From Aedes albopictus (lineage: Eukaryota; Arthropoda; Insecta; Diptera; Culicidae), in assembly GCF_035046485.1 (NCBI RefSeq), contig NC_085137.1, positions 343,098,505 through 343,162,504 of the forward strand: 64,000 nucleotides of DNA, in the 5' to 3' direction. Below the pieces are notes generated by a model. It had not been told where the DNA came from. It saw nothing but the letters and a program-made list of their open reading frames with translations, and searched no databases. Positions 2,024-53,501 of this stretch are shown here, one piece after another (position 1 is the first letter of the stretch; every line of letters begins with the position of its first letter). The position numbers were made by a program, and so were the translations under genes.

Positions 2024-4358
2024 CCACAACAAACGGAATCGCAAATCGACCACGTTCTGATTGATGGACGGCACTTCTCCGACATTAGCGACGTCAGGAC
2101 CTATCGTGGCGCTAATATCGACTCTGATCACTACCTGGTGATGGTTAAACTGCGCCCAAAACTCTCCGTTATTAACAATGTACAGTACCGGCGGCCGCCC
2201 CGGTACAATCTAGAGCGACTGAAGCAACCGGATGTCGCCACCGCATACGCGCAGAATCTAGAGGCAGCGTTGCCGGACGAGGGTGTGCTCGATGTGGCCC
2301 CTCTAGAGGACTGCTGGAGTACAGTCAAAGCAGCCATCAACAACGCAGCCGAGAGCACTATCGGGTACGTAGAACGGAGTCAACGAAACGATTGGTTCGA
2401 CGAGGAGTGCAGAGCGGTTCTGGAGGAGAAGGATGCAGCGCGGGCGGTAATGCTGCATCATGGAACCCGACAGAATGTGGAGCGATACAGACAGACGCGG
2501 AAGCAGCAGACCCGTCTCTTCCAGGAGAAAAGCGCCGCCTGGAAGAAGCGCAATGCGAGGAAATGGAACTGCTGTGCCGTTCACAAGAAACACGTAAGTT
2601 CTACCAGAAGCTCAACGCATCCCGCAAAGGCTACGTGCCGCAAGCCGAAATCTGCAGGGATAAGGACGGGAGCCTCCTGACGGACAAACGTGAGGTGATC
2701 GAGGTGGAACTAGCACTTCGACGAGCACCTGAATGGTGAAGAGAATGTAGGCACGGAGGACCAAGGCAGCGGAGAAAATGACTATGTTGGTGCAGCAGAG
2801 GACGGGAACGAATCAACTCCCACGCTGAGGGAAGTTAAGGATATCATCCACTAGCTCAAAAACAACAAAGCGGCTGGTAAGGACGGTATCGCAGTAGAAC
2901 TCATCAAGACGGGCTCGGAAAAGATGGCCACCTGTCTGCACCAGTTAGTAGTCAAGATCTGGGAAACCGAACAGCTACCGGAGGAGTGAAGGAAGGGATA
3001 ACCTGTCCTATCCACAAGAAAGGCGACAAGTTAATGTGTGAGAACTTTCGTGTGATCACCATTTTGAATGCCGCCTACAAAGTGCTATCCCAGATCATCT
3101 TCCGTCGTCTTTCACCTAAAGTAAATGAGTTCGTGGGAAGTAACCAATCCGGTTTCATCGACGGCCGGTCGACAACGGACCAAATCCTCCAGAAATGCCG
3201 TGAATACGAGGTCCCAACGCACCACCTGTTCATCGACCTCAAAGCGGCATACGACAGTATTGACCGCACAGAGCTATGGACAATTATGGACGAGAACAGC
3301 TTTCCCGGGAAGCTTACCAGACTGATAAGAGCAACGATGGACGGTGTGCAGAACAGCGTAAGGATTTCGGGGTGAACTATCCGGTTCATTCGTATCTCGA
3401 CGGGGACTACGACAAGGTGATGGACTTTCCTGCCTACTATTCAACATCGCCCTGGAAGGTGTTATGCGACGAGCCGGGCTCAACAGCCGGGGTACGATCT
3501 TCACGAAATCCGGCCAATTTATCTGTTTTGCGGATGACATGGATATTATTGTTAGAACATTTGGAACGGTGGCAGAACTGTACACCCGCCTGAAACGCGA
3601 AGCATCAAAGATCAGACTGGTGATGAATGCGACTAAGACAAAGTACATGCTGGTAGATGGGACTGAGCGAGACAAGACAAGCCTTGGCAGCAATGTTACG
3701 ATAGACGGGGATACTTTCGAGGTGGTAGAAGAATTCGTCTATCACGGTTCCTTGCTAACAGCTGACAATAACATGAGCCGTGAAATACGAAGGTGCATCA
3801 TCAGTGGAAGTCGTGCCTACTATGGGCTCCAAAAGAAACTGCGGTCAAAAAAGATTCACCCCCGCACCAAATGTACCATGTACAAGACTTTAATAAGACC
3901 GGTGGTTCTCTACGGACACGAGACATGGACGATGCTCGAAAAGGACCTGCAAGCACTCGGAGTTTTCAAGCGACGGGTGCTAAGGACGATCTTCGGCGGC
4001 GTGCAGGAGAACGGTGTGTGGCGGAGAAGGATGAACCACGAGCTCGCTGCACTTTACGGCGAACACAGTATCCAGAAAGTGGCCAAAGCTGGAAGGATAC
4101 GATGGGCAGGGCATGTTGCAAGAATGCCGGACAACAACCCTGCAAAATTGGTGTTTGCTAGCCATCCGGTTGGTACAAGAAGGCGTGGAGCGCAGAGAGC
4201 ACGATGGGCGGACCAGGTGGACCGTTATCTGGCGAGTGTTGGGCGTGACCGACGTTGGAGAGCTGCAGCAAAAAGCTGCAAATCGAGCATTATGGCGGCA
4301 AATTGTTGATTCAGTATTATCATGAATTTTATGTTAACTAAATAAATGAAATGAAATG
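2024..4358 (+). mobile_element. 5'-truncated RTE-type non-LTR retrotransposon, copy A
   Basis: The element enters in the middle of its endonuclease domain and runs to a short A/T-rich tail made of ATGAA-like units. It is flanked by an exact 11-bp duplication (2013-2023 and 4359-4369), the mark of target-primed reverse transcription with 5' truncation. The RTE assignment rests on the single endonuclease-RT frame, the C-terminal RWAGHVARM block and the short microsatellite-like tail instead of poly(A). The clade is an inference; a related mosquito LINE clade is possible. Copy B (23950-26607) is a close relative, while copy C (near 61-64 kb) is more distant. Confidence 0.85.
2027..4309 (+). pseudogene. 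Endonuclease (C-terminal part) and reverse transcriptase of RTE copy A, broken
   Basis: Reading along the plus strand: the end of an APE-like endonuclease (IDHVLIDGRHFSD, about 2037-2095), a linker (2138-2580), the block before the fingers (TRKFYQKLNASRKG, about 2590), the fingers/palm RT region (NNKAAGKDGIAVELIK through LKAAYDSID at about 3240-3265), RRGLRQGDGLSCLLFNIALE near 3400-3460, FADDMDII near 3525-3550, and a C-terminal RIRWAGHVARMP block near 4096-4130. The frame changes near 2580 and 2700. There are stops at 2852-2854 and 2987-2989 (probably TGG to TGA), and another frame change near 3375. Motif A (D in KAAYDS) and motif C (FADD) keep their aspartates, but the copy is inactive because of the breaks and the missing N-terminus. 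Confidence 0.85.
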
Positions 4359-5684: not shown

Positions 5685-5999
5685 GGGGTCTCCAGTAAGC
5701 CTAGTGGTTAAGGCTATAGATCGCCAATCAGGGACGGCGGGTTCGATTCCCGTTCCGGTCGGGACAATTTTCTCGGCCCCCTGGGCATAGAGTACATTGT
5801 ACTTGCCAAACAATGTACAAATTCATGCAATGGCAGGCAAAAAAAGCCCTTCAATTAATAACTGTGGAAGTACTCAAAGAACGCTTAGTTGAAGTGAGGC
5901 AGGCCAAGTTCCAATGCGAACGTCGAGCCATAAAGAAGAAGAAGAAGAAGAAGAAGAAGAAGAAGAAGAAGAAGAAGAAGAAGAAGAAGAAGAAGAATA
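5685..5999 (+). mobile_element. tRNA-derived SINE with GAA tail (Feilai-like)
   Basis: An internal pol III promoter is visible: an A box in TAAGCCTAGTGG (5696-5707) and a B box in GGTTCGATTCC (5740-5750). A non-tRNA body follows and ends in GAGCCATAAAGAAG. The 3' tail is a GAA repeat of about 65 bases (5934-5998). The head folds like a tRNA only loosely and lacks a clean acceptor stem, so this is a SINE and not a tRNA gene. Aedes aegypti carries an abundant tRNA-related SINE called Feilai. The match to that family is from memory and tentative. The poly-lysine frame across the tail is an artefact. Confidence 0.8.
5934..5998 (+). repeat. GAA microsatellite (SINE tail)
   Basis: About 21 uninterrupted GAA triplets forming the 3' tail of the SINE. 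Purine-purity on one strand means it could form triplex DNA, but the simple explanation is tail expansion. Confidence 0.95.
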
Positions 6000-6365
6000 A
6001 GGTTATCTTGAAGAGTTTCTTCAGGTATTCTCCAAGCCTTACTCTAGGAACTCTTGCGTGGATATTTTTCGAAAATTTCTTCAAAAATTTCTCCTAGAAA
6101 TCTTCAAAGGTATACCAGGAGTTTTATGAGTGATTCCTCCAGATTTCTTCCAGTTTTTTTTGTGCAAATTTCGAAAAAAAAAAACATCCATTGAAAAATA
6201 TCTGAAACAATTCCTGGGAGAATCTCAAAAGGAATCCCAAGAGGAATTTCTAACGAACCGTAGAAACAATCTCGAAAAACAATCTTGTAGAAATTTCAGC
6301 TGGAATCTCAGAAAAAATTGCCAAGAAATTCTTGAAGGATACCTTGGACAAATTTCCAGATAAAT
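6000..6365. repeat. TTCTTCAGG/AATTTCTT-type tract
   Basis: The degenerate vocabulary resumes after the SINE (TTTCTTCAGGTATTC, AAATTTCTTC, CCCAAGAGGAATTTC). The strand sense flips from CT-rich to GA-rich around 6180-6240, as in other tracts of this window. Confidence 0.55.
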
Positions 6366-6608
6366 TGTTATAGGATTTAAACCACTTCGGGACGCACGCC
6401 ATCAAGCAGCTTTAGCTGCACCGCGATCGCGCTGTATACGACGAGCGAGGTTTTTATTTAAGTGTTGTATTTTTTACAATGGCGTTAAGAACATTTTTAG
6501 ATTAATATGGAAGAACTTAAAGAAATCTCTTGCTGAAATTCCTGTTCAAAATCCCTTAAATACTGAAGAATCGTTTGAAGATATTCGGTGAAGGAACTTC
6601 ATTTTTGC
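6366..6608. other. Unassigned spacer
   Basis: Contains a CG-rich patch (6390-6450) followed by AT-rich sequence. No gene or repeat recognised. Confidence 0.4.
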
Positions 6609-7095
6609 CTTTCTCGTTCACCTAAGTGAACTGAAAGGCTATATGTTCACTCAAAAAAATAATTTCGATAGGAGGCTCGGAGGGTCAAGTCACATATACC
6701 AATCAACTCAGTTCGACGAGTTGAGATGATGTCTGTATGTGTGTATGTATGTGTGTCTGTGAACAAAATAAGTTCACTCACTTTTAAGGCACTTCCCATT
6801 GGCCGATTTTTCGGATTATAGCTCGAATCGAACCGGAATTTTACCGCATTGTTTGCTATTGAAAATGATTCGGATCGGTCAAGGCGTTTCGGAATTATGG
6901 CCAATTTAGTGATCCGAACCAGCATTTTTCACCCGAGCGACAGGTGTAACAGCCTGCTTAAGTTGGTGCGCGACGACCGCGACGTCGGACGCCGCAGCCC
7001 GCAGCACACCACGAGAACGAAAGTAAGAGAGAATGTGAGAGAAAAAGACGACGACGAAAGAGCGGCGCTAACGTGCTATACATATAAGCAAAAAA
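6609..7095. mobile_element. Dispersed GCCTTTCTCG family, copy 1
   Basis: Starts with a small palindrome (GCCTTTCTCGTTCACC then GTGAACTGAAAGGC). It continues through CACATATACCAATCAACTC, a GT microsatellite and CAAGGCGTTTCGGAATTATG, and ends in AAAGAGCGGCGCTAACGTGC. The same blocks in the same order are at 9661-10675, and the complement of the first part is at 21340-21700. No transposase frame is seen, so it is probably a non-autonomous DNA element of a family abundant in culicine genomes. Exact ends and superfamily are unknown. Confidence 0.65.
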
Positions 7096-8700
7096 AAGTC
7101 TAGAGTTGTCACCCATCACTATCGAACCACGTACGCTGCATACAAATTTCAAAATTTTTGTATGGACTAAAGTCAACGAGGGGGGGCAAATTCTGGTATA
7201 CGTGGTTTAAGAACAGCCCCTTCGGAATGACGAAACAGTCGTACGACCGATTGCCCCCCTCCCCGTAAAGTAATACGTCATCGAAATGGTACAACTGGCA
7301 TGGATACCCAGCGCTTCGACGCCGACCCAAACCCACCAGAGTGCATGGGCTGCGTGGAGGAGGCTGACCTAGCATAGCACCCCACCTCACTGCCATTCAT
7401 GGTTCGATAGCGATGGCGATGCTAAGTGACGGACGGGAGGCAACCGAAGGTTTTCGTTCCTATAGGATATTTACCTAGTATCGCGGATACTGCCTTTCCG
7501 CGTTTCGTCGCGAAACTGCACTGAAAATAATCGACACGCCTCATCCATGTTCTTGTAGACGTTAATGTAGCGTTAAAAACAGCACGCTATATTAACGTGT
7601 AATTCATTTGAATCAAATGTTGAATTGTTGAGGTTCTAAACCACTGTCTTTTACACATGATTTTATCGTGTTTGACAGTATGTTTATGTATCGATAATGG
7701 AAATGGTTCGCCTTTAATGTAATGTACATCATCGAACTCGCCCGCGGTAAGTATGTCTTAGCATACTTCATTTATGGTGAACATGGACCCGCAGCTGGGT
7801 GCCTGGTACTGATATTCTCAGAAATTTGACATTTACGATGCCAAACTAACGTGTTTTACACATGATTTCGACAAGTAGATTTATGACTGGTTTGACACGT
7901 TAAATTGAATGCAACATCAATGCTGGGATAGTGCGAGCGAAAGGGTTGTCACTCGCGAATGATGTTGTTTGCCCACCGAAAGTCTGGTGCGCGCGAGCAG
8001 GATCAGGATCACGCACACAGCCAGCGGTGATGCGCGGACCGGACAGCTGACTGGTTGGGTTGGGTTTCGGTTCGGGTGGCTGTGGGTGGTTGTTGGGTGG
8101 TGCCGCGCCATTCGGATGGACCGAAACGAATAAATTAGATTGATGGATATAAATAAAATACGAGCGAAATAACAAACAAAGATTATCTTGGTGACCGCGA
8201 TCGATAGCATTCGCGCAGCTTTCAGTGAGTCGCATACGTTTTAGGTATCAAATATTTATTGTTGCGAATTTTTCAACGACTGCTGCAGAAAGTACATTCC
8301 AAATTTCATAGGCACTACACAAATAAATGTTCGAACCATGAAATTGCTATACTCCATTGCACGGTGACGTCATCAAGAAATCGCTCTCTTTCTCTCCTAC
8401 GGGAAATTAGAAAACAACAGGACCAACACCTGTCCAACTTGACAGCTACTGGTCCTTTTGTTTTCAAACTCTCTGAAAGAGCTAAAGAAATAGATTTTCG
8501 CCGTGAGATGGTCTATTGCTTTAAGGCCAAGCACAGAACAAAATCACTAGAATCTCAACCATTTTGCCGATCATTGAAACAAGATTCGTTAGGGGTGGTG
8601 GAGGTAAAGTAGACAACCTAAGCATTTTGGTCGTTTCCAGTGGAAATGCGGCAAAATCCATCTGCTTTTCCGAGTAACATGGAAGGTAATGATATATGTT
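7096..8700. other. Unassigned intergenic or intronic DNA
   Basis: No recognisable gene. Open frames up to 117 codons (8259-8612 plus, 7900-8235 minus) show no domain motif. Around 7550-7900 there are several near-complementary TTAACGTG / CACGTTAA-like words, hinting at an old decayed foldback that I cannot delimit. Confidence 0.4.
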
Positions 8701-28146: not shown

Positions 28147-29269
28147 AGACCAGAACAGGAAAAAAAAACCGAAGAGACGTTCATACCGGATCTGGACCAA
28201 GCTGTGGAGCCAAGGCCCGGCCGGTCCAGAAATTTTTGCGGTTGAGTATCTTATCTTGCACATTCAGAGTGCATTTTTCTGCTCGACTATCATTGCTGCG
28301 GCTTGCCGGGTGCTGGTCGGTCTTCTCAAGTCTGAATGGGTTGCAAGGGGAAACGGGGGTCTTCTTTTATTGCTTTCTTTTCCAATAAAATTCTACTCGG
28401 TTCGGCGAGCTGAGAATAATAATAGTTGCATTCTGGTGGTGAAACCATGTGGGTGGATAAGGGAAGGAAGGGGTGGTCCTAGGGATAGGGGTTCGTTCCG
28501 GACGTGGTCTGCACTTTAGAACACTGACTGCTGTCAGAGGCTGACGGCAGGAAGAAGGAATCATTCTCAGCAGCAGCAGCACCAGCCGACTTCTCATCCT
28601 CGGCGTCGTTGTAGTCGTCGCCGGGCCGATGAAAAGAAATTTGCATTGCATTAGGGAAATGAATTGAAGCGAATTAAATATTTAAATTAAATAAAATTAT
28701 CAGACGGGAAACTATTTCAGGCAAAACTGAAGGGTTGAATGATGACGAAGAGCTAAACTGTTTTTGGAAGTTTGCAATCGAAATTGATCTCTATGAGATT
28801 GATTTTGTATGTTCTCTGCTCAATAGACGTTGATGGGTTCATGCAAAATCGGTCGATTAAGCATTAATAATTATTTTCTTAATACCCACCAATTATTCGA
28901 TTACCATTCACATTCAATGTCTGATGATGTGCTAGTTCTATACCCATAAAAGAGAAAAGTCCATTTCTTCACAACATGATTAACCTCGTTTTTCTGTCTG
29001 TTTTTTTTTTTGCACCCAAACCCAAATAACTGACCTCAAAAAAACTTTATTTTATTTGAAAAGAGCTAGATAAACATCTCACATTGCATCACTGCCATTC
29101 AATATTTAATTTAACTAACCTTTGAAACGCATTGTTCAACAAGAAGTGGAAGTATTGATCACGCTAACAATGCATAGTAAACGAAGTTATTGCCACATTA
29201 TGTTTCCAATGAACAATGCCGCCGTTTCGGCCGTCGTAAATTTTGGAACGCAGCAACTCGCAGGCTTTA
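28147..29269. other. Unassigned DNA
   Basis: No gene or element recognised. 28180-28630 is GC-richer and has frames up to 159 codons (28040-28519 plus) that begin in the poly(A) retroposon and contain no domain. 28640-29140 is AT-rich. Confidence 0.35.
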
Positions 29270-29572
29270 GGACAGAAGGTCGAAGGACAAATGGTCGAAG
29301 GACAAAAGGTCGAAGGACAAAAGGTCGAATGGACAAAAGGTCGAAGGGACAAAAGGTCGAATGGACAAAAGGTCGAATGGACAAAAGGTCGAATGGACAA
29401 AAGGTCGAATGGACAAAAGGTCGAATGGACAAAAGGTCGAATGGACAAAAGGTCGAATGGACAAAAGGTCGAATGGACAAAAGGTCGAATGGACAAAAGG
29501 TCGAATGGACAAAAGGTCGAATGGACAAAAGGTCGAATGGACAAAAGGTCGAAGGGACAAAAGGTCGAATGG
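29270..29572 (+). repeat. 16-bp tandem array (GGACAAAAGGTCGAAT), about 19 units
   Basis: Tandem copies of GGACAAAAGGTCGAAT. The first few units (29270-29330) are 15 bp, lacking the T, and more variable (GGACAGAAGGTCGAA, GGACAAATGGTCGAA), while the inner units are nearly identical. A mirror-image array lies at 31589-31838. The array is open in several frames because 16 is not a multiple of 3 and the unit has few stops. The predicted repeated DKRSNGQKVEWTKGR-type peptides are artefacts. Confidence 0.95.
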
Positions 29573-29639
29573 TTCATGTTCTTGCTCATTGAGAGAAACA
29601 TTATGGTGCTTTTATAGTAATCATATGTATTTCAGCCAC

Positions 29640-31292: not shown

Positions 31293-31588
31293 CATGAATA
31301 ACATTACTTTATATCCTTCTATAGTCTAGTTTACGAAACGACAGCAGTGTTGATATTGATATTAACACTCACGGGCTTGGGCGCAACCTCCTGTCAAATT
31401 TTCATTCATGAAATAAGCGATCAGCTGATCCGAAACGTCTCGTAAAATGGCTCATTGGCTTCTACTTTCTATCATTCTAGGCATCTATTTCGAATTGCAA
31501 TGCGGTAGTAAAAAGCTGCATATAAGCTAATTGTCGTTTTACTGACCACTTTATCATGTCTTCCAAATTGTCTACTGTCAATAATTAT
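31293..31588. other. Spacer between satellite and 16-bp array
   Basis: Non-repetitive in this window. It has no resemblance to the spacer on the left side (29573-30150) that I can see. Confidence 0.5.
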
Positions 31589-31838
31589 ACCTTTTGTTCT
31601 ATTCGACCTTTTGTCCATTCGACCTTTTGTCCATTCGACCTTATGTCCATTCGACCTTCTGTCCCATTCGACCTTTTGTCCATTCGACCTTTTGTCCATT
31701 CGACCTTTTGTCCATTCGACCTTTTGTCCATTCGACCTTTTGTCCATTCGACCTTTTGTCCATTCGACCTTTTGTCCATTCGACCTTTTGTCCTTCGACC
31801 TTTTGTCCTTCGACCTTATGTCTTTCGACCTTTTGTCA
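31589..31838 (-). repeat. 16-bp tandem array in inverted orientation, about 16 units
   Basis: On the plus strand the unit is ATTCGACCTTTTGTCC, the complement of the 29270-29572 unit. Units at the outer right edge (31793-31838) are 15 bp, as at the outer left edge of the first array, and the inner units are 16 bp with a few variants (CTTATGTCC, CTTCTGTCCC) near 31640-31665. The two arrays are therefore mirror images in orientation and in polarity. Confidence 0.95.
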
Positions 31839-32907
31839 TAGATTCCAACTCGCATACCTTGTAGCACCATCCATCTAACAACCCAATTTTCGACGAACTT
31901 TGCAACAATAACCTTCGCCGCGCATATCCTTCACTTACACCACCACCACCACCCACCCAAACTTGCGCCCATATTGTTCCCAATCGCACAATCAATTAGA
32001 CGGCAGAGAAATTAGTTTGATTCGTGTTAATTAACACCACTCACCTTTCGGAGCGGCGGCTACGGCAGCCAGCGCGCTTTTGTATGCACGAAAGCGGCTG
32101 TTTGCGAACCCTTAGCGACGTGCCGTACCGTGTGCTGGCTGGTGCCATGCCATCCGCCGCCAGTCAGGGCCGCGCGCCTGCCGCCGTCCAGGGCCAGGTA
32201 GGTTATGTGGTGGGTGGCATCGAACGTTCGTTGATTGACTCCTGATGAAGGGATTCCTGTGCCACACACCTGGCTGCTACTGGGACGACAGCCAGCGCAC
32301 CGCATCTCGGCGCGTTTCCTCATAGCGTGGCCAAATGGATACCTACCACCCGGTTTCGGATTTGATGTGGTTGAGCTAATAAGCTTCCTCCGCCTGTGTT
32401 ACTCTACATGGTCCCGGCAACCGGGTACGGGGAAGGTCTTTGAGTTTCAATCCGGGGAGTGTGTGTTTCATGCCGTGAAAACACGTGGAAGAAGTCTAAC
32501 AAGCAATTGGAGGTGCTATTCACGTACGGCTTCCTGCTTTAGAGCAGAGGGTTGAGAGTTATGGGATCTTTGAAATTGTGTTGTGTAGACTTGTAGAAAC
32601 CAGGCAACATATGCTTTCGAGTGATTTTAACACTAAGCCTAATTGATTCGATATTTAGAAAAACATGTCTTTACAAAGTATTCTTAACTTTAAAGTTTTT
32701 TTTTGCATCAGTTCTGCTACTGAATCGATATAAATTCATGTACTGAATGAGCTACTTGCCAGAAAAAAAGAAATTAACTAATTCTCAACAAGAATAAGTT
32801 TGAGCTACTGATCAGATGACGCTGCTTATGTATATCAATGTTCTAAAAAACATATTAGGATCATAAAATGATGCTAAAAGTAGATATATAACTAGTTCAC
32901 TACAATG
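31839..32907. other. Unassigned DNA with a GC-rich patch
   Basis: 32040-32560 is GC-richer and contains a 106-codon plus-strand frame (32235-32555) and an 87-codon minus-strand frame, neither with a recognisable domain. There is a CCACCACCACC run near 31940. The rest is AT-rich and featureless. Confidence 0.35.
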
Positions 32908-42883: not shown

Positions 42884-43016
42884 TGGGATTAGCGAACGGG
42901 AGTTGACAGTGCGATGTGCAGGTGACCGCCGCAGCCGTTAAGCTACGGGAAGGGCCAGCAGGGACACAGATAGCTTTGGTTCAGCTACCTGTGACGGACG
43001 TCAAAAAGTCCGTTAA
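42884..43016 (+). pseudogene. R1-clade ORF1 (gag-like), upstream fragment
   Basis: One frame reads DVQVTAAAVKLREGPAG, GTQIALVQLPV and TDVKKS, a stretch typical of the region just before the zinc knuckles in R1-clade ORF1 proteins. The fragment stops at the TTAA at 43013-43016, where the palindromic element begins. The same frame resumes at 50304 with KVGSIKVGWCVC. The 5' part of ORF1 is missing; a stop lies a few codons upstream. Function when intact: binding of the element RNA in ribonucleoprotein particles. Confidence 0.75.
43013..43016. other. TTAA target site, left copy
   Basis: TTAA directly precedes the CCCGCAAACACC terminus. The partner copy is at 50304-50307. Confidence 0.9.
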
Positions 43017-44395
43017 CCCGCAAACACCCGGGACGATCTACTTTTGGCAGAAATGCAATATCTTCTTTGTTTTAAAACATTTTACCCCGAATTTTTTTTT
43101 ATAGTCAAGGGGAATAGTTGTGCTAAGAAATGCATGGTACCTCCCCCCTTTGCACCCTCCCCCCTTTTGCGGGGAGGCGAAAATACGTGGCTTTTTTTTG
43201 TATTTTTTATAAATTCTACATGTTTTTGCTCAAATTTCATCGTTTTGCTAATCATCAATAGTTTTCACTGATCCTAGACATGCAAAGTATTACTACCCAT
43301 CATAGTCTGTTGAAGTTTTGTTCCCAGAGCTATTCTAAGGCCTCCAAAGTACTCTGAAGTTTGTGACACAAATCTGACATTCTCAACCAAATTTTATACA
43401 CGATGAATGATTACAGAACATTGTCTACGGTACTCAAAAAGCCTCAAAGCACCCCTAGAAAATTCATGGTACATGAATTGGGTGATCTAGGTCATCCAAA
43501 CTACTCTGGAATTCATTTTCTTAAGATCTAAAACATCTACCATCGTTTGTGTTCACTCTGTTCAAGAAATTTAGTCACGTTGATGTCCATTACACCTTAC
43601 AATGCTATGAGCAACTTGATATTGTGGTAGTTGGACATTCCGTGAAATACAAATGGCCTCCAATACACTTTGAAGTTTGGCTTACGATATCTACATACTG
43701 TCTCTTGCTTTAGTTGTGAAAATTTTTCGTGGAATGTAATCTATAATGCTGATGGAACCTCAGTGCACATCTATAATGCTTTTGGTACATTCATGGGATA
43801 TTCCAGGCTTTCCAAACTATTCTGGAATTAGGAACTTCAAGGTCTACAGGCTCTACGCTGGTTTTTCTTCACTCTATCGGCATTATTCTTTCACGATTGT
43901 GTCTGTTGCACCTCATTATATTACGAGTATCTGTATTTGTTGCTATTTGGGTGTCCACTGTCATACAAATGGACCCAATGTATTTTGAAGTATGGGTCGC
44001 AATATCTGTAAATCTTAGGATATTTCTATTGTAGCGAATGCTTGCGAAATATAATCTACGCTACTCTTAGAACCTCAGAGTGCAATTTTGATAACTTAGC
44101 AACATTCACTTGGTGATCTAGGTCATCAAAACTATTCTGGAATTAAGACCTTCAAGCTCTATAAGCTCTACTCTTGTATCTCTTTACTTTATTCTTCCAC
44201 GATTACCTCTGTTGTATCTCATAATGTTTTGACTATTTCTTTGTGTTGCTTGTGCATCCACTGACATACAAATGTTCTTTATGGTATTTGAAAGTGTCGG
44301 AAATTACCCAAGCCTTCCTCTAGGCGTTCCTCGGAAATTCCTCCAGGAGTCCCTCAGAAATTCATCGTGATGTTCTCCGAGAACATCTACGAGTT
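43017..44395 (+). repeat. Left unique arm of the palindrome
   Basis: This part of the arm is non-repetitive inside itself (AAATGCAATATCTTCTTTG, GGGGAATAGTTGTGC, CAATAGTTTTCACTGATCC) and is matched in complement by 48929-50303. Differences seen by eye include GCTAAGAAATGC against GCTAACGCATGC near 43125/50190 and AAAGTATTAC against AAAATATTAC near 43287/50033. Confidence 0.9.
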
Positions 44396-45074
44396 CCAAG
44401 GGAATGCCTCAGGACTTCCCATGAAATTCTTCAGGAGTTTTCCAGCAGTTACTCGAAAATTTATTCAGGAGCTATGCTGGAATTCCTTCAGGAGTTCATC
44501 AGGAATTACTTCAAGAACTTTTCGAAAAATCCTGCTGGAGTTCCTCGGGAATTCTTCCAGAAATTCTACGTGGATTCCTCCAAGAAGTTTTCCGGGGATT
44601 TCTTAGGAATTTATCCAGGGCTTCCTCCAGCGATTTCTCTAGAAATTCTTCCAGGGATTCCTTCGAGAATTCCTCCATGGACTCATCAAGGAGTTCAGTC
44701 AGGAATTTCTCCAGAGCTCCTTCAGAAATTTATCTAAGATTTCCTCCAACAACTAACCCAGGGATTTCTTCAGGATTCAAGGGATTCTTCCAGAAATTCT
44801 TCCAGGGATTCCTCCAGAGTTTCCTCCAGGAATTCTTCTAGGCAATACTCCAAAAACTTCTCCTGAGGATTTCTCCGGGTAATCTTCCCGGGTAATTTCT
44901 CCAGAAATTCCTTCAGGAATACCTCCAGGAAATTCTTCATAAATAACTGCTAATTGATATATGAATTCATCAAGGGATTCCTTCAGAAATTCCTCCACGG
45001 TGTCCTCCAGAAATTCTTCCAGGAGTTCCTCCAAAAATACCTCTAGGAATTCCTCCACAAAATGTTCCCAGTAT
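44296..45074. repeat. TTCCTCCAGGAA-type tract, left inner arm
   Basis: CT-rich sense: AATTCCTCCAGGAGT, GGAATTCTTCCAGAAATTC, CTCCAGGAATTCTTC with spacings of 24-36. The first 230 bases are complementary to 47890-48104. An LTR is inserted at its end (45079). Confidence 0.8.
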
Positions 45075-45078
45075 ACCT

Positions 45079-46571
45079 TGTAACGTTTTGACGTTTTTAT
45101 TCTTTTAAGTAAAATAAGGTTTGAATTCAATTAGATTAAATTGATATTTTTTTTTTGAATATTTTGATTTTGATTTTAGAATTTGTTTTTTTTTTTAATT
45201 TAATTATTAGTTTTCATGATTATTTTAGTTAATTTGTAGCTTTTGACGTTTTTATCTTTTCAAGTAAAATCTTAATTGAATTGGATTCGTTGATTTGCCT
45301 TAGAGTTTGAACCGTTTCATTTAGTAGAGATTATCCGTTTCATATATGGTTTGTGTCTAGGCTAAGCTAATGACGATTCATGTTCCATATCTTATAGGAC
45401 TTTTTCGATGGCGCAAAATAGTTTTACGGCCATGTGCGATTTGAATTTGACGCACTTGTATGTAATAGTTTGTAGATTGAATAGACGACTGCTTCAATAG
45501 CAGGAAATTTACTTGACTAGGAAATTCGACTTGACTCCATCATTTTAAATTAGAGTCGGCTGGTGAGCAGAAGTGAGCTCCGGCGATCTTCTCCCAGTTT
45601 TTTTAGTTTGAAAAGGTGTGTAGTGTGTCGTAATGATGTAGTTTAGTAAATTAGTGTTGTTTGAAGTGAATTTGTTTTAAATGGTCTTTGTTTTTCGTTT
45701 AATAGTTTGATTTCGTGGATTTTGTCGCCAGGGGCAGACACTCTGTTCCCTGTGCACGTATTTGTTGTTTTTAAAGGTAAATATAAAAGTGAATTCGTTT
45801 AGTGTATATTGTTTTAATTTGTGTTCTCTCTTTGGACCTCAGCGTCCAAGGACGCTTTTTATTTGGGGCTTTATGCCATTTTTTCCGTGCTCTACTGGTG
45901 CTCTTCCTCGCCCGCCAACGAATGGCAGTCAAACGGAGCAAAGGAAACATATCCGGCCTACCCGCGTGCGGTAGACGTACGTTCGGGCAGAGTACCGGAC
46001 CGCCGACACCCTTCCTCCGCACCTTTAATTCGGCGAACAGTTGGAAGAGCCCACCGACGTCGACGATTGGCCAAGAGAGCAACGCCAACAAATAAAACCT
46101 GCGCAGGTACGTTAATCATGGCCATGATCACACACACACACACATACACACACACAACCATTTGACGATCAGTTTGTGAAAAATAATATACACTGTAATG
46201 AGTTCAATTGTTGTTTTTTTTGTTCCATGTTTTTATTGTTTTTTTTTATATTGTTCTCCAAATTCCTATTCATCCATTTTCGTTAAATAAATTCACTTCT
46301 ACGACCTCTAATTATCTTTGTAATTTATTCAGTTTTTAAGTTATTCTTGTGTAAATTTCCGTTATTGTTTCAGTTTATCCGTTTTGTGTATTGAATTTAG
46401 TACGTTTTGAGTTTTAGTCGAGCCAGCGGCCGTTCGATAAAGCCCTTGAGAAAGAGTCGTCAGTTTAGTCGGGCAAACTTTAAAATGAACCGGAGGTCTC
46501 TCGTTCGCGAGAGTGGCGCAAAAGCCACCGCGTTTTGACAATCTCTCGAGCAAATTCAACGAACGGTTACA
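45079..46571. mobile_element. Solo LTR, 1493 bp, 4-bp target duplication
   Basis: It begins TGTAACGTTTTGACG and ends GAACGGTTACA, giving TG...CA termini within a TGTAAC/GTTACA inverted end. ACCT lies at 45075-45078 and 46572-46575. Removing it joins GTATACC to TCCAGCAATTCC, a normal tract sequence. No gag, protease or pol frame is present, so this is a solo LTR and not a full retrotransposon. It contains an AC microsatellite (46131-46158) and GC-rich segments with 97-114 codon frames lacking domains. A 4-bp duplication fits Ty3/gypsy elements. The length is large for one LTR, so an unidentified short internal region cannot be excluded. Confidence 0.75.
46131..46158. repeat. AC microsatellite
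   Basis: Run of CA dinucleotides with one AT interruption, inside the solo LTR. Confidence 0.9.
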
Positions 46572-46575
46572 ACCT

Positions 46576-48104
46576 CCAGCAATTCCAACAAGGTTTCTTT
46601 CCGGAATTCCTCACAGGGATTCCTCCTTAAATTATTTCAGGAATTCCATCAGTCATTCCTCCAGGGATTCCTCCAGGAATTCTTCCTGGATATACTCCAG
46701 GATATATTCCAAAAATTCTTCAAGCAAATACTCCAGGAGTTCTTTCAGGAATTACTCCAGGAATGACTCTACGAATTCCTTCTGGAATTACTACAGGAAA
46801 TAGTCTAGGAATTGTTCCTCTAAGAATTTCTCTGGGAAACTGTTTAAAACTTCCTTCACAAATTACTACATGAATTCTTGCAGAAAGTACTCCAGGAATT
46901 CCTCCAGGGTATTCTCCAGAAATTTATTCAAGAAATTCTTGAAGAAATTCTTGGAAATATTCTTGTAAGAATTCTTGGAGGAATTCCTGAAAAAAATCTT
47001 CAAGGAATCCCTGGAGAAATTACTAGAGAGATTTTTGGAGGATTTCCTGAAGGAATTCTTGGAGGAATTTGCGGGGATATTCCAATAGGCATTTATGGAG
47101 AATTTTATGAAGGTATTTATTGAAAAACCCTGGAGGTTTTCCTAGAGAAATTTATAAAGGAATCCTTGGCCAAATTGCAGGACGGATTCCTGCAGGAATT
47201 TTGACATAAATATTGGGGCAGGTCTTGGAGAAATTCTTATTAGAGTTCCTATTGGACTTCTTGAAAAAAATCTGAAAGAATTCCTTGAAGGAATTCTCGG
47301 TGGAATCCCTGGAGTTGTCCCGGGAGTATTTTCTTGAGCAATTTCTGGAGGTTTTCTGAAGAATCTAGGAGGTATTCATAAAGGAATTTCTGGAGGATTT
47401 TTTAATTTCTGGAATTTCTGGAGAATTTTTGAAAATTTTTGAAGGAATTCCTTGAAAAATCCCTGAAGGAATTTCTGGCGAAATTCCTGAAGGGATTATT
47501 GGCAGATATATTAGAGGGTTCTTTGGTAAAATTCTTGGGGAAGGTACAGTAGGAGTTTTTGGAATTCCTCGAGGGAATCTTGGAAGAATTCTTGGAGAAA
47601 TTCCTTCTGAAAGAATTTCCGGAGAAATTTCTTGGGGAATTGCTGGAGGAAACTCTGCAGGAACCCCTGGAGAAATTTCTGGAAGAATCCCTTGAATCCT
47701 GAAGAATTCCCTGGGTTAGTTGCTAGAGGAAATCTAGGAAGAATTTCTGAGCGAGCTATGGAGGAATTCCTAGAGGAATCCCTGGGGGAATCACTAGAAA
47801 AACTTCAAGAGAAACCGCTGGAGGAATCCCTGGAAAATTTCCTGGAGGAACTCTTGGGAAAGCTTCCTTGATGAGATTTTAGAGAACGCATGAAGAAATC
47901 CTTGGGAGACTCCCGTGGAGTCCTCGGGGAATTTCTGGCGGAATTCCCGAGGAACTCCTGCAGGATTTTTCGAAAAGTTTTTGAAGTAATTCCTGAGGAA
48001 CTCCTGAAGGAATTCCAGCATAGCTCCTTAATAAATTTTCGAGAAACTGCTGGGAAATTTCGGAAGAATTTCACGGGATGTCCTAAGACATTCCCTAGGA
48101 ACTC
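46576..48104. repeat. TTCC-type tract spanning the centre of the palindrome
   Basis: CT-rich words (GGATTCCTCCAGGAATTC) dominate until about 46920, where GA-rich words (GGAATTCCTGGAGAAATT) take over. This switch marks the symmetry centre. From about 47890 the sequence is the complement of the left inner arm at 44400-44600. Frames here (46513-48117) are tract readings rich in E/F/L or S/R/N. Confidence 0.8.
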
Positions 48105-48924
48105 TGTAACATCTTAAGGGTTTGCGCATTCCTATCACGCATTTAGAACACGAAAAATCACATTTCCTCACATTTATTTATCTTCTTTTTTTTTCTTACA
48201 TTATTCATCTCTCTATGCTAACTTCCCTAATCGTATCTTCCCTAACGTTTCTTGCACCATCTTCCGCCACCATGAAGCAACAGTGTACCCAGTCCTGCCG
48301 ACGTTCTGCTTTCCGCTGCCTCGGTGTCGCCGAAAATGCCACGAGTCTTGTTCCCGAACCCATCTATCTGCCGGGAATATGGTCTAGGGTAACGGTCGAA
48401 TTTTGGACCCCCTATTCCGCACCAAACTCTTCATGCTGTAAGTGATTTGACTACATCCTCGACCACATCTAGCTTGCTTCCCGAGCCGGCTACTACTGCC
48501 GACCCGTAGAAAAATTCTCGAACCGGACCTCGCTTCGACCGACGATACGATTTCTGCTACGCTGCACAAGAATGAGATAATTGTTCACCAGAGAACCGAC
48601 GCTAGTCTCATCTTTCTGCTTCTCTCATCGGCGTGCGTGGTGTGCTACACCCGAAAGCTCTCTGGCCACATATCAATCGTACGTCTTGTTCGCCAAAGTC
48701 GGCGATAGAACTAGTGATCATCGTTGTCGCGTTGTCGTGTAGATGACGGGGTATGTGTGGCCGAACTGTCACCTGTACTGAACTGAGGTATATGTGGTTT
48801 TGGTTGATGATGGATAGAATCGACGGGTCTGTTGCAGGGGCTCTCAACATGTGGTGCACGAATCATTTCATTCTCCATGCTCGAAATCTAGGACTTTTTT
48901 CTAATTCACATTTCAAACGTAACA
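48105..48924. mobile_element. Solo LTR, 820 bp, 4-bp target duplication, with an empty site in the other arm
   Basis: It begins TGTAACATCTTAAGGG and ends CAAACGTAACA. ACTC lies at 48101-48104 and 48925-48928. Joining the flanks gives GGAACTCGTAGAGATATTCTC, and the opposite arm at about 44372-44402 reads, in complement, GGAACTCGTAGATGTTCTC without any insertion. The other arm is therefore a natural empty site. No internal retroviral frame is present. Like the 45079 LTR it has TGTAAC ends and a 4-bp duplication, but the two sequences do not otherwise match by eye. Confidence 0.85.
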
Positions 48925-48928
48925 ACTC

Positions 48929-50303
48929 GTAGAGATATTCTCGGAGAATATGGATTCCTGAAGGACTCTTGGAGGAATTTCCGAGGAACGCCTAGAGGAA
49001 TTCTTGGGTGATTTCCGACACTTCCAAACACCATAAAGAACATTTGTATGTCAGTGGATGCACAAGTAACACAAATGCTCAACAAATTATGAGATACAAC
49101 AGAGGTAATCGTGGAAGAAGTACATCGATAAAATAAAGATATACAAGAGTAGAGCTTGGAGAGCTTGAAGGTCTTAATTCCAGAATAGTTTGGATGACCT
49201 AGATCACCAAGTGAATGTTGCTAAGTAATCAAAATTGCACTCTGAGGTTCTAAGAGTAGCGTAGATTATATTTCGCAAGCATTCGCTACAATAGAAATAT
49301 CCTAAGATTTACAGATATTGCGACCCATACTTCAAAATACATTGGGTCCATTTGTATGACAGTGGACACCCAAATAGCAACAAATACAGATACTCGTAAT
49401 ATAATGAGGTGCAACAGACACAATCGTGAAAGAATAATGCCGATAGAGTGAAGAAAAACCAGCGTAGAGCCTGTAGACCTTGAAGTTCCTAATTCCAGAA
49501 TAGTTTGGAAAGCCTGGAATATCCCATGAATGTACCAAAAGCATTATAGATGTGCACTGAGGTTCCATCAGCATTATAGACTACATTCCACGAAAAATTT
49601 TCACAACTAAAGCAAGAGACAGTATGTAGATATCGTAAGCCAAACTTCAAAGTGTATTGGAGGCCATTTGTATTTCACGGAATGTCCAACTACCACAATA
49701 TCAAGTTGCTCATAGCATTGTAAGGTGTAATGGACATCAACGTGACTAAATTTCTTGAACAGAGTGAACACAAACGATGGTAGATGTTTTAGATCTTAAG
49801 AAAATGAATTCCAGAGTAGTTTGGATGACCTAGATCACCCAATTCATGTACCATGAATTTTCTAGGGGTGCTTTGAGGCTTTTTGAGTACCGTAGACAAT
49901 GTTCTGTAATCATTCATCGTGTATAAAATTTGGTTGAGAATGTCAGATTTGTGTCACAAACTTCGGAGTACTTTGGAGGCCTTAGAATAGCTCTGGGAAC
50001 AAAACTTCAACAGACTATGATGGGTAGTAATATTTTGCATGTCTAGGATCAGTGAAAACTATTGATGATTAGCAAAACGATGAAATTTGAGCAAAAACAT
50101 GTAGAATTTATAAAAAATACAAAAAAAAGCCACGTATTTTCGCCTCCCCGCAAAAGGGGGGAGGGTGCAAAGGGGGCAGGTACCATGCATGCGTTAGCAC
50201 AACTATTCCCCTTGACTATAAAAAAAAATTCGGGGTAAAATGTTTTAAAACAAAGAAGATATTGCATTTCTGCCAAAAGTAGATCGTCCCGGGTGTTTGC
50301 GGG
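48929..50303 (-). repeat. Right unique arm of the palindrome
   Basis: Complement of 43017-44395, ending in GGGTGTTTGCGGG at the TTAA. Near-identity of the arms implies recent formation or homogenisation by gene conversion. Confidence 0.9.
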
Positions 50304-50602
50304 TTAAAGTAGGGAGCATAAAGGTGGGCTGGTGTGTATGTTACCTGACATTCCACGACCCACCAGAGGTTTGCTTCAGGTGTCTGGAACCAGGACACAA
50401 GTCGTGGGACTGCAAAGGCCCCGACAGGCGCAAACTGTGCAGGCGATGCGGCGCTGAAGGTCATAAGGCCCAAAGCTGCACGAGTCTGCCCATCTGCATG
50501 ATCTGTACCGGGAAATCCTCTAACAACAGACATCCGATGGGTGATCCAAGGTACCCGACCTTCAAGAAAGCCGCAGTGAACAACAAATCACAGTACAGGT
50601 AA
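50304..50602 (+). pseudogene. R1-clade ORF1 (gag-like), zinc-knuckle C-terminus
   Basis: From the right-hand TTAA the frame reads KVGSIKVGWCVC and then zinc knuckles: CFRCLEPGHKSWDC (C-X2-C-X4-H-X4-C), CRRCGAEGHKAQSC (the same spacing) and a less regular CMICTGKSSNNRH. It ends with TAA at 50600-50602. CCHC knuckles in ORF1 are known in the R1, jockey and I groups, where they bind nucleic acid. It continues the fragment at 42884-43016 in the same frame, so the piece is intact apart from the split and the missing 5' end. Confidence 0.85.
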
Positions 50603-53501
50603 CGCAGCTGAACCTGAACAACTGTGATGCGGCTCAGCAACTGCTTTGTCAGGCGGTTTCTGAGTGGGAGTCGGATATCGCCATCATATCGGACCCATAC
50701 CGAATACCCGCCGGCAACGACAACTGGGTCGCGGATGGGACCAGAGAAATGGCGGCGATATGGACGACGGGTAAATACCCCGTCCAGGAGTTGGTGGCTA
50801 CTACCTATGAGGGCTTCGTGGTCGCCAAAGTAAACGGGGTCTTCTTCTGTAGCTGTTATGCGCCTCCGCGGTGGCCGATCGAGCGGTTCACGCAAATGCT
50901 GGACCGCTTAACGACCGTGCTAACAGGGCGAAGGCCGGTGGTAATAGCGGTTGACTTTAATGCCTGGGCCGTGGAATGAGGAAGCCGTTTCACGAACCAG
51001 CGAGGTCAGATCCTGCTAGAAACACTGGCCATCCTAGATGTCGACTTGGCTAATGTCGGTACCAAGAGTACCTATAGTCGAAACGGAGCGGAGTCAATTA
51101 TTGACGTGACCTTTTGTAGTCCTGGCCTAACAAGTAGTTCGAACTGGAGAGCAGATGATGGCTACACTCACAGCGACCACCTGGCGGTTCGCTACAGTAT
51201 CGATTACAACAACAGCAGACAGCGGATAGAAGAAGTGGCGGCTAGGCCAAGGCCATGCCCTCGCAGGTGAAAGACATCATACTTCGACGAAGGGGTATTT
51301 AGGGAGGCGCTCCGCCCTGAGCAAAACTTAATCGGTTTAGACGGCGACGAGCTGGTAGCGGTGCTCTCACGTGCGTGTGATGCGACCATGCCTAGGCGAG
51401 TTCACCATAGAAATGGGAGGCTACCGGCTTACTGGTGGACCGACGCGACTGCGGACCTACGCCGAGCACGATCAGAGGAAGAGCGAAACGAACGGCGGGT
51501 GGTGTTTGCAGCTGAAAAATCCGCGCTTAAGACCGAGATAAAAGCAAGCAAAAAGACCTGCTTTGAGGGTCTCTGTCAGAGTGCCAATATGAACCCGTGG
51601 GGTGACGCCTACAGGATCGTTATGGCCAAGACGAGAGGTGAGATGGCTCCTACAGAGCAAGCTCCAGAGATGTTGGAGGTGATCATCGAGGGGCTTTTAC
51701 CGCATCATGATCCTAGTCCTTGGCCTCCATTCATAGGACAGCCGGGGACTGGGGCTGGCGATGAGGAGAGGGTCACCGATGTGGAACTTGCGGGGATAGC
51801 TAAGTCCCTTAGCGTAGGTAAGGCCCCAGGTCCGGACGGAGTTCCGAACCTGGCCTTAAAAGTAGCTATTGCAGAGGCTCCCGAGATGTTCAGGTCTGCT
51901 ATGCAGAAATGCCTTGACGAGGGAGTTTTCCCAGAAGCTTGGAAGAGGCAGAGCCTGGTAATATTGCCAAAGGCGGGGAAACCACCCGGAGACCCGTCGG
52001 CATATAGACCAATATGCTTGATGGACACGGCGGGGAAGGTGCTCGGAAAGATCATCCTCAATAGAATGTTGAGGTTCACCGAGGGCGAAAATGGTCATTC
52101 GGCTTCCGGAAGGGGAGGTCCACCGTAGACGCTATCTTGTCGGTTACAAAAACCGCTGAGAAAGCACTCGAGCCTAAGAGGAGGGGAATTCGCTTTTGCG
52201 CGGTAGTGACTCTGGCTGTAAGGAATGCATTTAATAGCGCCAGCTGGTCTGCTATTGCCGATGCGCTCTTGCGTCTGGGGATACCGGAGTACCTGTACAA
52301 GATTCTCGGAAGTTACTTTCAGAATCGTGTACTAGTCTACGACACGGAGGTGGATCGGAAGTGCTTTCACATAACCTCAGGAGTCCCGCAAGGTTCCATC
52401 CTGGGTCCGGCGTTATGGAATGTCATGTACGACGAGGTGTTGAGGTTAGAGTACCCAGTGGGAGTGGAGATTGTCGGATTTGCCGACGACATTACGCTCG
52501 AAGTCTACGGTGAAACGATCGAAGCGGTGAAGTTGACTACCGACCACTCGATCAAGGTTGTGGAAGCGTGGATGCGGTCCAGGAAACTGGAGCTGGCTCA
52601 CCACAAGACAGAGGTAACGGTTGTTAACAACCGGAAGTCGGAGCAACAGACGGAGATCAGTGTAGGAGGGTTCACTATCCTGTCAAAGCGCGTGATGATC
52701 GACGATAAGCTTACCTTCGGTAGCCACGTCGATTATGCCTGTAAAAGAGCCTCCACAGCTATTGCGGCACTGTCCCGGATGATGTCAAATAGCTCTGCGG
52801 TGTACGCCAGTAAGCGCAAGCTTCTGGCTAGTGTTGCTACGTCCATACTTAGGTATGGCGGCTCGGCGTGGGGCGCCGCGCTAAGTACTGAATGCTACCG
52901 ACGGAAGCTGGAAAGTACTTACATGCTTATGTACCTGAGGGTTGCGAGCGCGTACCGTACCGTCTCACACGACGCTCTCTGCGTCATTACTGGTATGGTG
53001 CCTATCAGCATTCTTATCAGTGAGGACATGGAGTGCTTCGAAATGCACGGCACAAGAGGCATACGCAGGACTGCCAGGATGGCCTCTATGGTCAAATGGC
53101 AGCGCGCGTGGGACAGTTCCACCAAAGGAAGGTGGACCCATAGGTTGATACCGAGGGTAGATAGTTGGATTAATAGGCGCCATGGGGAAGGTACATTCCA
53201 CCTGACACAGGTCAATGGTTGCTTCCGACAGTATCTACACCGTTTCGGGCATGCGGATTTTCCCGAATGCCCAGTGTGCAATGGTTTAGAGGAAACGGCG
53301 GAACACGTTTTGTTCGTGTGTCCGCGTTTTCGCACAATGCGTGACCGCATGCTTGCCACATGCGGAGAGGACACAACTCCGGACAATTTGGTCCAGAGGA
53401 TGTGTAGGGATGAGTTTAGCTGGAACGCCGTTTCAACGGCTATCACCCATTACGTCTGGGAGCTACAGAGGAGGTGGCGCGTGGACTCGGAGAATGGCTA
53501 G
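50590..53501 (+). pseudogene. R1-clade ORF2: endonuclease and reverse transcriptase, broken
   Basis: Domains in order: APE endonuclease (QLNLNNCDAAQQLL, ISDPYRIPAGN, VIAVDFNAWAVE, HSDHLAV; about 50600-51195), linker, RT fingers (GKAPGPDGVPNLALK at about 51822; LPKAGKPPGDPSAYRPICL), motif A region VTLAVRNAFNSASW (about 52206), PQGSILGPALWN (about 52388), GFADDITLEVYG (about 52478), thumb, then GRWTHRLIPRVDSWINRRHG and a C-terminal CPVCNGLEETAEHVLFVCPRF knuckle near 53270. The last blocks are typical of the R1 clade. Breaks are TGA at 50977-50979 and 51268-51270, and a frameshift near 52093. The motif A aspartate is replaced by alanine (codon 52215-52217), and the endonuclease glutamate region reads SDPYR instead of the usual SEPYR. 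Confidence 0.9.

Follow-up and report, generated by a model that had tools for sequence, protein, structure and literature searches.

The stretch of DNA analysed here, which we call the window, comprises 64,000 nucleotides of Aedes albopictus and contains a 7,287-bp foldback element that is inserted in a non-LTR (long terminal repeat) retrotransposon; the element and the two halves of its host are listed in Table 1, in window positions. The element is very probably one copy of a high-copy family of giant, non-autonomous foldback DNA transposons, which insert at TTAA, are mobilised by a transposase supplied in trans and have arms that evolve in concert.

The two ends of the element are 19-base inverted repeats of the sequence CCCGCAAACACCCGGGACG, identical to each other and bordered by TTAA on both sides, as the first-pass annotation of the window had described; the 23-base combination of TTAA and terminus occurs at two places in the window when up to three mismatches are allowed, both of them exact, and at none in 100 dinucleotide shuffles. 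The inverted arms (element positions 1-1379 and 5908-7287) show 96.5% identity when the element is compared with itself by BLAST, and 97.9% identity over 1,369 aligned bases, with 4 gaps, in a global alignment, where the longest perfect runs are 383 and 353 bases; at 1.38 kb, they have the length of over 1.3 kb that the annotation had given them. Further inward, the arms run on, as had also been noted, into degenerate minisatellite tracts with a period of 12/24 bases that are oriented oppositely, the left tract being of the TTCC type and the right one of the GGAA type. No reading frame of at least 150 amino acids (aa) is found inside the element.

Two inserts interrupt this symmetry. Both start with TGTAAC, one ends with GTTACA and the other with GTAACA, and, judging from their TG...CA ends and 4-base duplications, they are solo-LTR-like; the longer one is private to the window copy, being missing from copy L039, which is otherwise 99.3% identical. 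Because of the private insert and the one-sided 820-bp insert, an alignment of one half of the window copy against the other pairs only 61% of the half-length, so that to describe this copy as an almost complete palindrome, as was done initially, goes too far.

Table 1. The foldback element and the retrotransposon that it interrupts, in window positions.
Feature	Positions	Strand	Basis or remark
Left half of the interrupted host, non-LTR retrotransposon, ORF1-like frame	42909..43012	+	134-aa frame runs through the junction with one TTAA
Left TTAA, target-site duplication	43013..43016	.	Homology of other places begins here or within 1 base in 29 of 39 non-self matches (best 40 scored)
Whole foldback element, 7,287 bp	43017..50303	.	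No reading frame of at least 150 aa
Left terminal inverted repeat CCCGCAAACACCCGGGACG	43017..43035	+	Sequence
Left arm, 1,379 bp	43017..44395	+	BLAST self-comparison; outer ~1.1 kb is the part apparently concerted with the right arm
Left TTCC-rich degenerate minisatellite tract, 12/24-bp period	44396..45078	+	Sequence
Private 1,493-bp insert, TGTAACG...CGGTTACA, between two ACCT duplications, solo-LTR-like	45079..46571	.	Copy comparison
Centre and right GGAA-rich tract	46572..48104	.	
820-bp insert, TGTAAC...GTAACA, between two ACTC duplications, solo-LTR-like; common to subfamily 1	48105..48924	.	
Right arm, 1,380 bp	48924..50303	-	BLAST self-comparison
Right terminal inverted repeat	50285..50303	-	Sequence
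Right TTAA, target-site duplication	50304..50307	.	
Right half of the host retrotransposon	50308..53501	+	Reverse transcriptase match PF00078 in frame 52065-53501

The search of the genome (1.344 Gb; C1-C3 denote its three chromosomes, and L numbers denote loci or copies taken from it) with the 23-base TTAA-terminus sequence has returned 755 matches with at most two mismatches (380 + 375), compared with none for the reversed control. One hundred of the 755 termini, all exact, have been listed individually; among these, 27 neighbouring pairs within 12 kb face each other, none face away from each other and one is on the same strand. Apart from the window copy, we have obtained 20 paired copies of 4.4-7.0 kb with other flanks (4,413-7,287 bp with the window copy included). 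TTAA is present on both sides in all 21 full copies, a count that holds by selection, since 20 of them were chosen by their exact TTAA ends. A less selected view of the boundary is given by a 221-base query that includes 13 flank bases and yielded 1,467 candidates: the best 40 were scored, and of the 39 non-self matches among them, 22 have the first T of TTAA as the exact starting point of the homology, and in 29 the start is no more than one base away; the right end of the window element itself is one of the 39. Two pairs of termini, L011/L012 (C1:10.24 and 10.96 Mb) and L029/L030 (C1:180.214 and 180.219 Mb), have identical 12 outer-flank bases, and probably belong to duplicated segments instead of separate insertions.

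The extent of the pairing differs among the copies: it covers 79-83% of the half-length in eight of the 21 (L041, L043, L047, L050, L052, L054, L056 and L057; 5.0-6.4 kb) and 62-78% in the remaining 12, the window copy set aside. The interior of an 8.9-kb family member, of which 6,001 bp have been read, consists of more tract, with a longest frame of 181 aa. Thus constituted, the family has the features of the foldback class, i.e. long inverted arms over much of the element and internal repeats, with dispersed copies that carry target duplications. Miniature inverted-repeat transposable elements (MITEs), which are short and non-coding with terminal inverted repeats (TIRs), remain under ~600 bp; the 21 copies, at 4.4-7.3 kb, fall outside that class.

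The 820-bp insert is found in all eight copies of subfamily 1, as grouped by tree (L045 is without its first ~50 bp), and partly in L048; this subfamily has multiplied while carrying the 820-bp passenger. The window copy and L039, located at different sites, are 99.27% identical over 5,784 bp, the private insert being excluded. Sixteen well-supported changes set both arms of subfamily 1 apart from those of the older copies. Arm columns 19-60 vary by 2.07%, versus 3.54-6.36% in six bins further in; the copies were chosen by their ends, and nothing rests on this difference.

Members of the family are inserted in other repeats. When the window flanks are joined with a single TTAA, the 134-aa open frame of Table 1 is formed, with a zinc knuckle (PF00098) in its right part. 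Copy L042 is located at the matching TTAA of a paralogous copy of the retrotransposon, in the opposite orientation, as is evident from its 820-bp insert being on the other side. For L055, joining the two flanks gives a sequence that can be aligned, across the junction and with 82% identity over 193 bp, with a paralogous repeat unit of that locus; such an empty paralogue was present in the DNA at hand for one of the 21 joined flanks. Window positions 2024-4309 contain another stretch that resembles a retrotransposon and matches a reverse transcriptase (PF00078).

The distances between arms have been compared over the outer 1,100 alignment columns, in subfamily 1 plus L048 (n = 9) and in the old copies (n = 11, with L049 left out; its right arm is badly diverged). 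In subfamily 1, the distance between the arms within a copy is 1.07%, compared with 2.18% for the same arm and 2.19% for opposite arms of different copies; in the old copies, the corresponding values are 2.73%, 5.21% and 5.19%, i.e. the outer arms are about twice as similar within a copy as they are to the arms of other copies. Since same-arm and opposite-arm distances between copies are nearly equal, left or right ancestry is not retained in these columns. Its own partner is the nearest arm for 33 of the 42 arms, and none of 20,000 random re-pairings, with or without L049, reached the observed mean (permutation p = 5e-5). With gap neighbourhoods masked, there are 78 derived changes that are common to both arms of a copy where 33.4 would be expected, and 163 where the expectation is 42.6. 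Counts of inner columns, shared changes (in L057) and diagnostic changes were made with L048 in the old group, and outer distances and the permutation moved it to subfamily 1; the conclusion is the same. Statistically, therefore, the outer ~1.1 kb of the arms of one copy are more alike than the common descent of separate arms allows, a pattern that reads as the signature of concerted evolution and would result from gene conversion, or from strand or template switching, between the inverted arms.

At columns 1100-1300 of subfamily 1 the pattern is reversed (5-12% within a copy, 2.6-4.2% for the same arm between copies); homogenisation therefore stops near 1.1 kb, which provides both a boundary and an internal control. 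The older copies show no clear difference there (8.9 and 18.6% within, 8.0 and 20.9% between copies). A first tree had suggested two distinct arm types, A and B, in subfamily 1; this distinction was dropped in favour of concerted evolution, with one differing-majority site left in the gap-free columns of the 1,380 bp, and with the columns in which a single arm deviates from the old consensus (29 and 8) confined to the inner end.

In the explanation that we favour, the transposase supplied in trans would recognise the terminal sequence, probably together with a G/C-rich subterminal block (see below); the element would insert at TTAA, which would be duplicated, and the arms would be homogenised by conversion or template switching between them, before or after the insertion. 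The transposase would belong to the piggyBac superfamily and transposition would be of the cut-and-paste type, while transcripts across the element would fold into a kilobase-long hairpin of double-stranded RNA (dsRNA). The name that suits it best is TTAA foldback transposon, with piggyBac as the probable driver. Several observations count against this account. Nine of the 42 arms are nearest to an arm other than their partner, namely one each of the window copy, L042, L043, L053 and L056, and both of L049 and L050. The chief technical doubt is that polishing of the assembly can raise the similarity of near-identical arms; a difference of ~2% persists between those of the window copy, which therefore have not simply been merged. 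The joined flanks of L042 form an open frame of 128 aa that is without zinc knuckles, and the empty unit that matches the L055 flanks, i.e. the one paralogous empty site, reads TTTA where the TTAA target is expected. Regarding the transposase, the genome contains 117 matches to PF13843 (DDE_Tnp_1_7), and for the 116 that are located on C1-C3 the distance to any of the 100 exact termini listed exceeds 64 kb (655 of the 755 termini are not listed); no transposase-bearing copy with the ends of the family was found in this comparison or at the loci that were read, and matching inverted ends are absent from five piggyBac loci that were read on both sides.

The similarity of the arms might have arisen without conversion: each copy or founder may have been born with near-identical arms, with the element being regenerated from one arm (e.g. 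by strand switching at hairpin replication), followed by independent divergence. We regard this as possible, although rather unlikely. Regeneration likewise predicts arms that are closer within a copy than between copies, and agrees with the single differing-majority site between the arms of subfamily 1; the arm-specific differences that are kept across copies at columns 1100-1300, however, mean that whole arms have not been rebuilt, and the changes in L057 are arranged as in a tract, with 10 shared changes and one single-arm change over the outermost ~720 columns, and 21 of the single-arm kind on the inner side of these. It is quite improbable that the palindrome is kept by selection, as a functional long-hairpin RNA locus that produces endogenous small interfering RNAs (endo-siRNAs). 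Such a locus would suit the folds predicted for the window copy (-4151 kcal/mol; 1,341 of the 1,379 bases of the left arm have their pairing partner no more than 60 bases from the mirror position) and for L057 (-3,368 kcal/mol, versus -1,185 for one shuffle), which also support the earlier prediction of a long hairpin transcript. It would also suit the report, in PMC3259105, that the MITEs of Aedes aegypti account for 15.03% of the transposon-mapping endo-siRNAs and for 2.03% of the PIWI-interacting RNAs (piRNAs), for which its authors invoke foldback dsRNA. Against selection, the hundreds of dispersed termini indicate a transposon in the first place, and arm homogenisation requires no selection. 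An inverted duplication, or an assembly artefact at one locus, would equally give long and similar arms; this has been refuted by the 20 other copies, which share the ends but lie between different flanks, and by the window arms, which differ by ~2% and carry different inserts, and its probability is negligible. The first-pass annotation had named in advance such an artefact, or a lack of other TTAA-flanked copies in the genome, as what would undermine its mobile-element reading; the artefact is dismissed and the copies are present, dispersed and inserted into other repeats, and the reading as a mobile, non-coding, TTAA-flanked foldback element is supported.

Kolobok and Sola3 are superfamilies that also target TTAA, and it is unlikely, but not by a wide measure, that one of them mobilises the family in place of piggyBac. 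The assignment to piggyBac, which is likely, draws on the TTAA target-site duplication, a feature of that superfamily, and on the CCC ends, which the first-pass annotation had called the piggyBac signature; the fourth base, on the other hand, is G, which does not agree with the CC[C/T]T motif of 12-19 bp TIRs that PMC2872659 quotes, and favours another driver. With ends that begin CCCG and an inverted repeat of 1.4 kb, the family is therefore not filed as piggyBac, but probably works like one; the remark that its size is unusual for a piggyBac derivative is fair in view of the ~100-bp MITEs of the same source (PMC2872659). No piggyBac gene with the ends of the family was found at the loci examined, which also favours another superfamily, and is countered by an arm-colinear terminus (TTAACCCTTAAAAGCCCAGGACGA) that is located ~350 bp outside a repeat array, beside the piggyBac-domain locus at C3:408.62 Mb.

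This locus holds a two-part piggyBac-domain gene (L072, L073, L076 and L077; C3:408621129-408630405) between inverted, foldback-like arrays of 162-base tandem repeats, of ~1.7 and 1.3 kb, with inverted matches of up to 1,360 bp at 88.5%. The terminus at C3:408621840, TTAACCCTTAAAAGCCCAGGACGAGTCT, is a TTAACCC end, followed by sequence that is colinear with the start of the arm, chiefly arm positions ~95-190, at a score of 62.7 (200 shuffles: mean 19.5, standard deviation 4.0, maximum 31.5). A second copy, at C2:147.74 Mb (L074-L075, C2:147738814-147744088), has flanks that match both C3 flanks; such a TTAACCC end is absent at the two other array ends examined, one on the opposite side at C3 and one on the low side at C2. 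The C3 terminus is the best lead for a piggyBac driver, which falls short of proof that end and gene form one element. At arm positions ~95-190 (window ~43111-43206) there is a G/C-rich block, CCCCCCTTT..ACCCTCCCCCCTTTT..GGGG, which recurs at the same offset at the C3 terminus and is a candidate transposase-binding site.

In the search for an autonomous partner, termini TTAACCCGCAAACAC and TTAACCCGCAAAC, with four changed interior positions, gave 0 matches each (reversed control: 0 and 5), a weak negative, since a random interior would pass only about one time in three. In a piggyBac family of 611-612 aa, of which two copies were compared, the 3' end reads inward (C/T)CCTTTCCTTCCCACGAC and has no similarity to the arms. 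Near termini with a partly arm-like interior (L009, L010, L018, L025 and L028), inspection by eye, with no family search made, revealed no transposase-like frame, the longest frame being 113 aa, and the terminus search of viral contigs returned 0 matches. The region C1:224570996-224578835 contains two pairs of piggyBac-domain fragments, identical in score, that lie inverted to each other at ~6-7 kb, as an inverted duplication would.

Foldback (FB/NOF) of Drosophila melanogaster has long inverted arms that consist partly of short tandem repeats, 9-bp duplications and NOF of the Mutator-like element (MULE) type. The present family shares such arms, but is flanked by TTAA and has no transposase in the copies read. 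The element Wuneng originates from Aedes. It duplicates TTAA, and piggyBac elements and piggyBac-type MITEs such as the CMITEs of corals resemble the present family in TTAA duplications and CCC-starting inverted ends, the MITEs also being non-coding; the CMITEs, however, are ~100 bp long and the TIRs of piggyBac 12-19 bp, in contrast to arms of 1.4 kb that begin CCCG and continue into tracts (PMC2872659).

Foldback transposons are described for P-type (Galileo) and Mutator-type (Tm1) elements; Galileo is the nearest to the present family in behaviour, and Tetris in layout (PMC3573991, PMC4079207). Galileo, of the P superfamily in Drosophila, likewise has long, internally repetitive inverted ends (reported at up to ~1.26 kb) and many copies without transposase sequence, and the ends of one copy are 98-100% identical, for which its authors propose conversion; its transposase is of the P-element type, unlike the TTAA-flanked family described here, whose arms run into TTCC minisatellite tracts and, in some copies, pair almost to the centre (PMC3573991). 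Tetris, a foldback of Drosophila virilis, is also non-autonomous; its TIRs, which reach 1,735 bp, are divided into an outer stretch and an inner one of tandem repeats, they enclose a middle of no apparent coding capacity, and its transposase is reported not to have been found. It differs by its target duplications of 8-10 bp and its three complete copies, compared with TTAA and hundreds of termini (PMC4079207). Among the open-access titles and abstract openings on TTAA, piggyBac or mosquito foldback elements, no such family is described, which is a weak absence.

The family is real, of high copy number and unusually large, and in its arms the signature of concerted evolution is statistically clear; with its inner boundary at ~1.1 kb, it offers many natural replicates for studying what keeps the long inverted repeats of a transposon similar to each other. 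The family is, in addition, a concrete candidate for the kind of element that could feed the MITE-type endo-siRNAs reported in Aedes aegypti (PMC3259105), and a candidate for the long-hairpin class whose siRNAs, according to a 2025 study, the method used there may have overlooked (PMC12076837). A broader and doubtful proposal is that of a TTAA-targeting, piggyBac-driven foldback group, which would unite non-autonomous giant hairpins with piggyBac-domain elements that have kilobase inverted tandem arrays; ongoing arm conversion would keep the hairpins competent for dsRNA, and the hundreds of copies would act as a standing source of siRNAs.

Elsewhere in the window, positions 29119-29631 and 31472-31930 contain open frames that are built of a short repeat (of the KRSNGQKVEWTKGRMD type), i.e. 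a minisatellite, the first of the two being readable on both strands.

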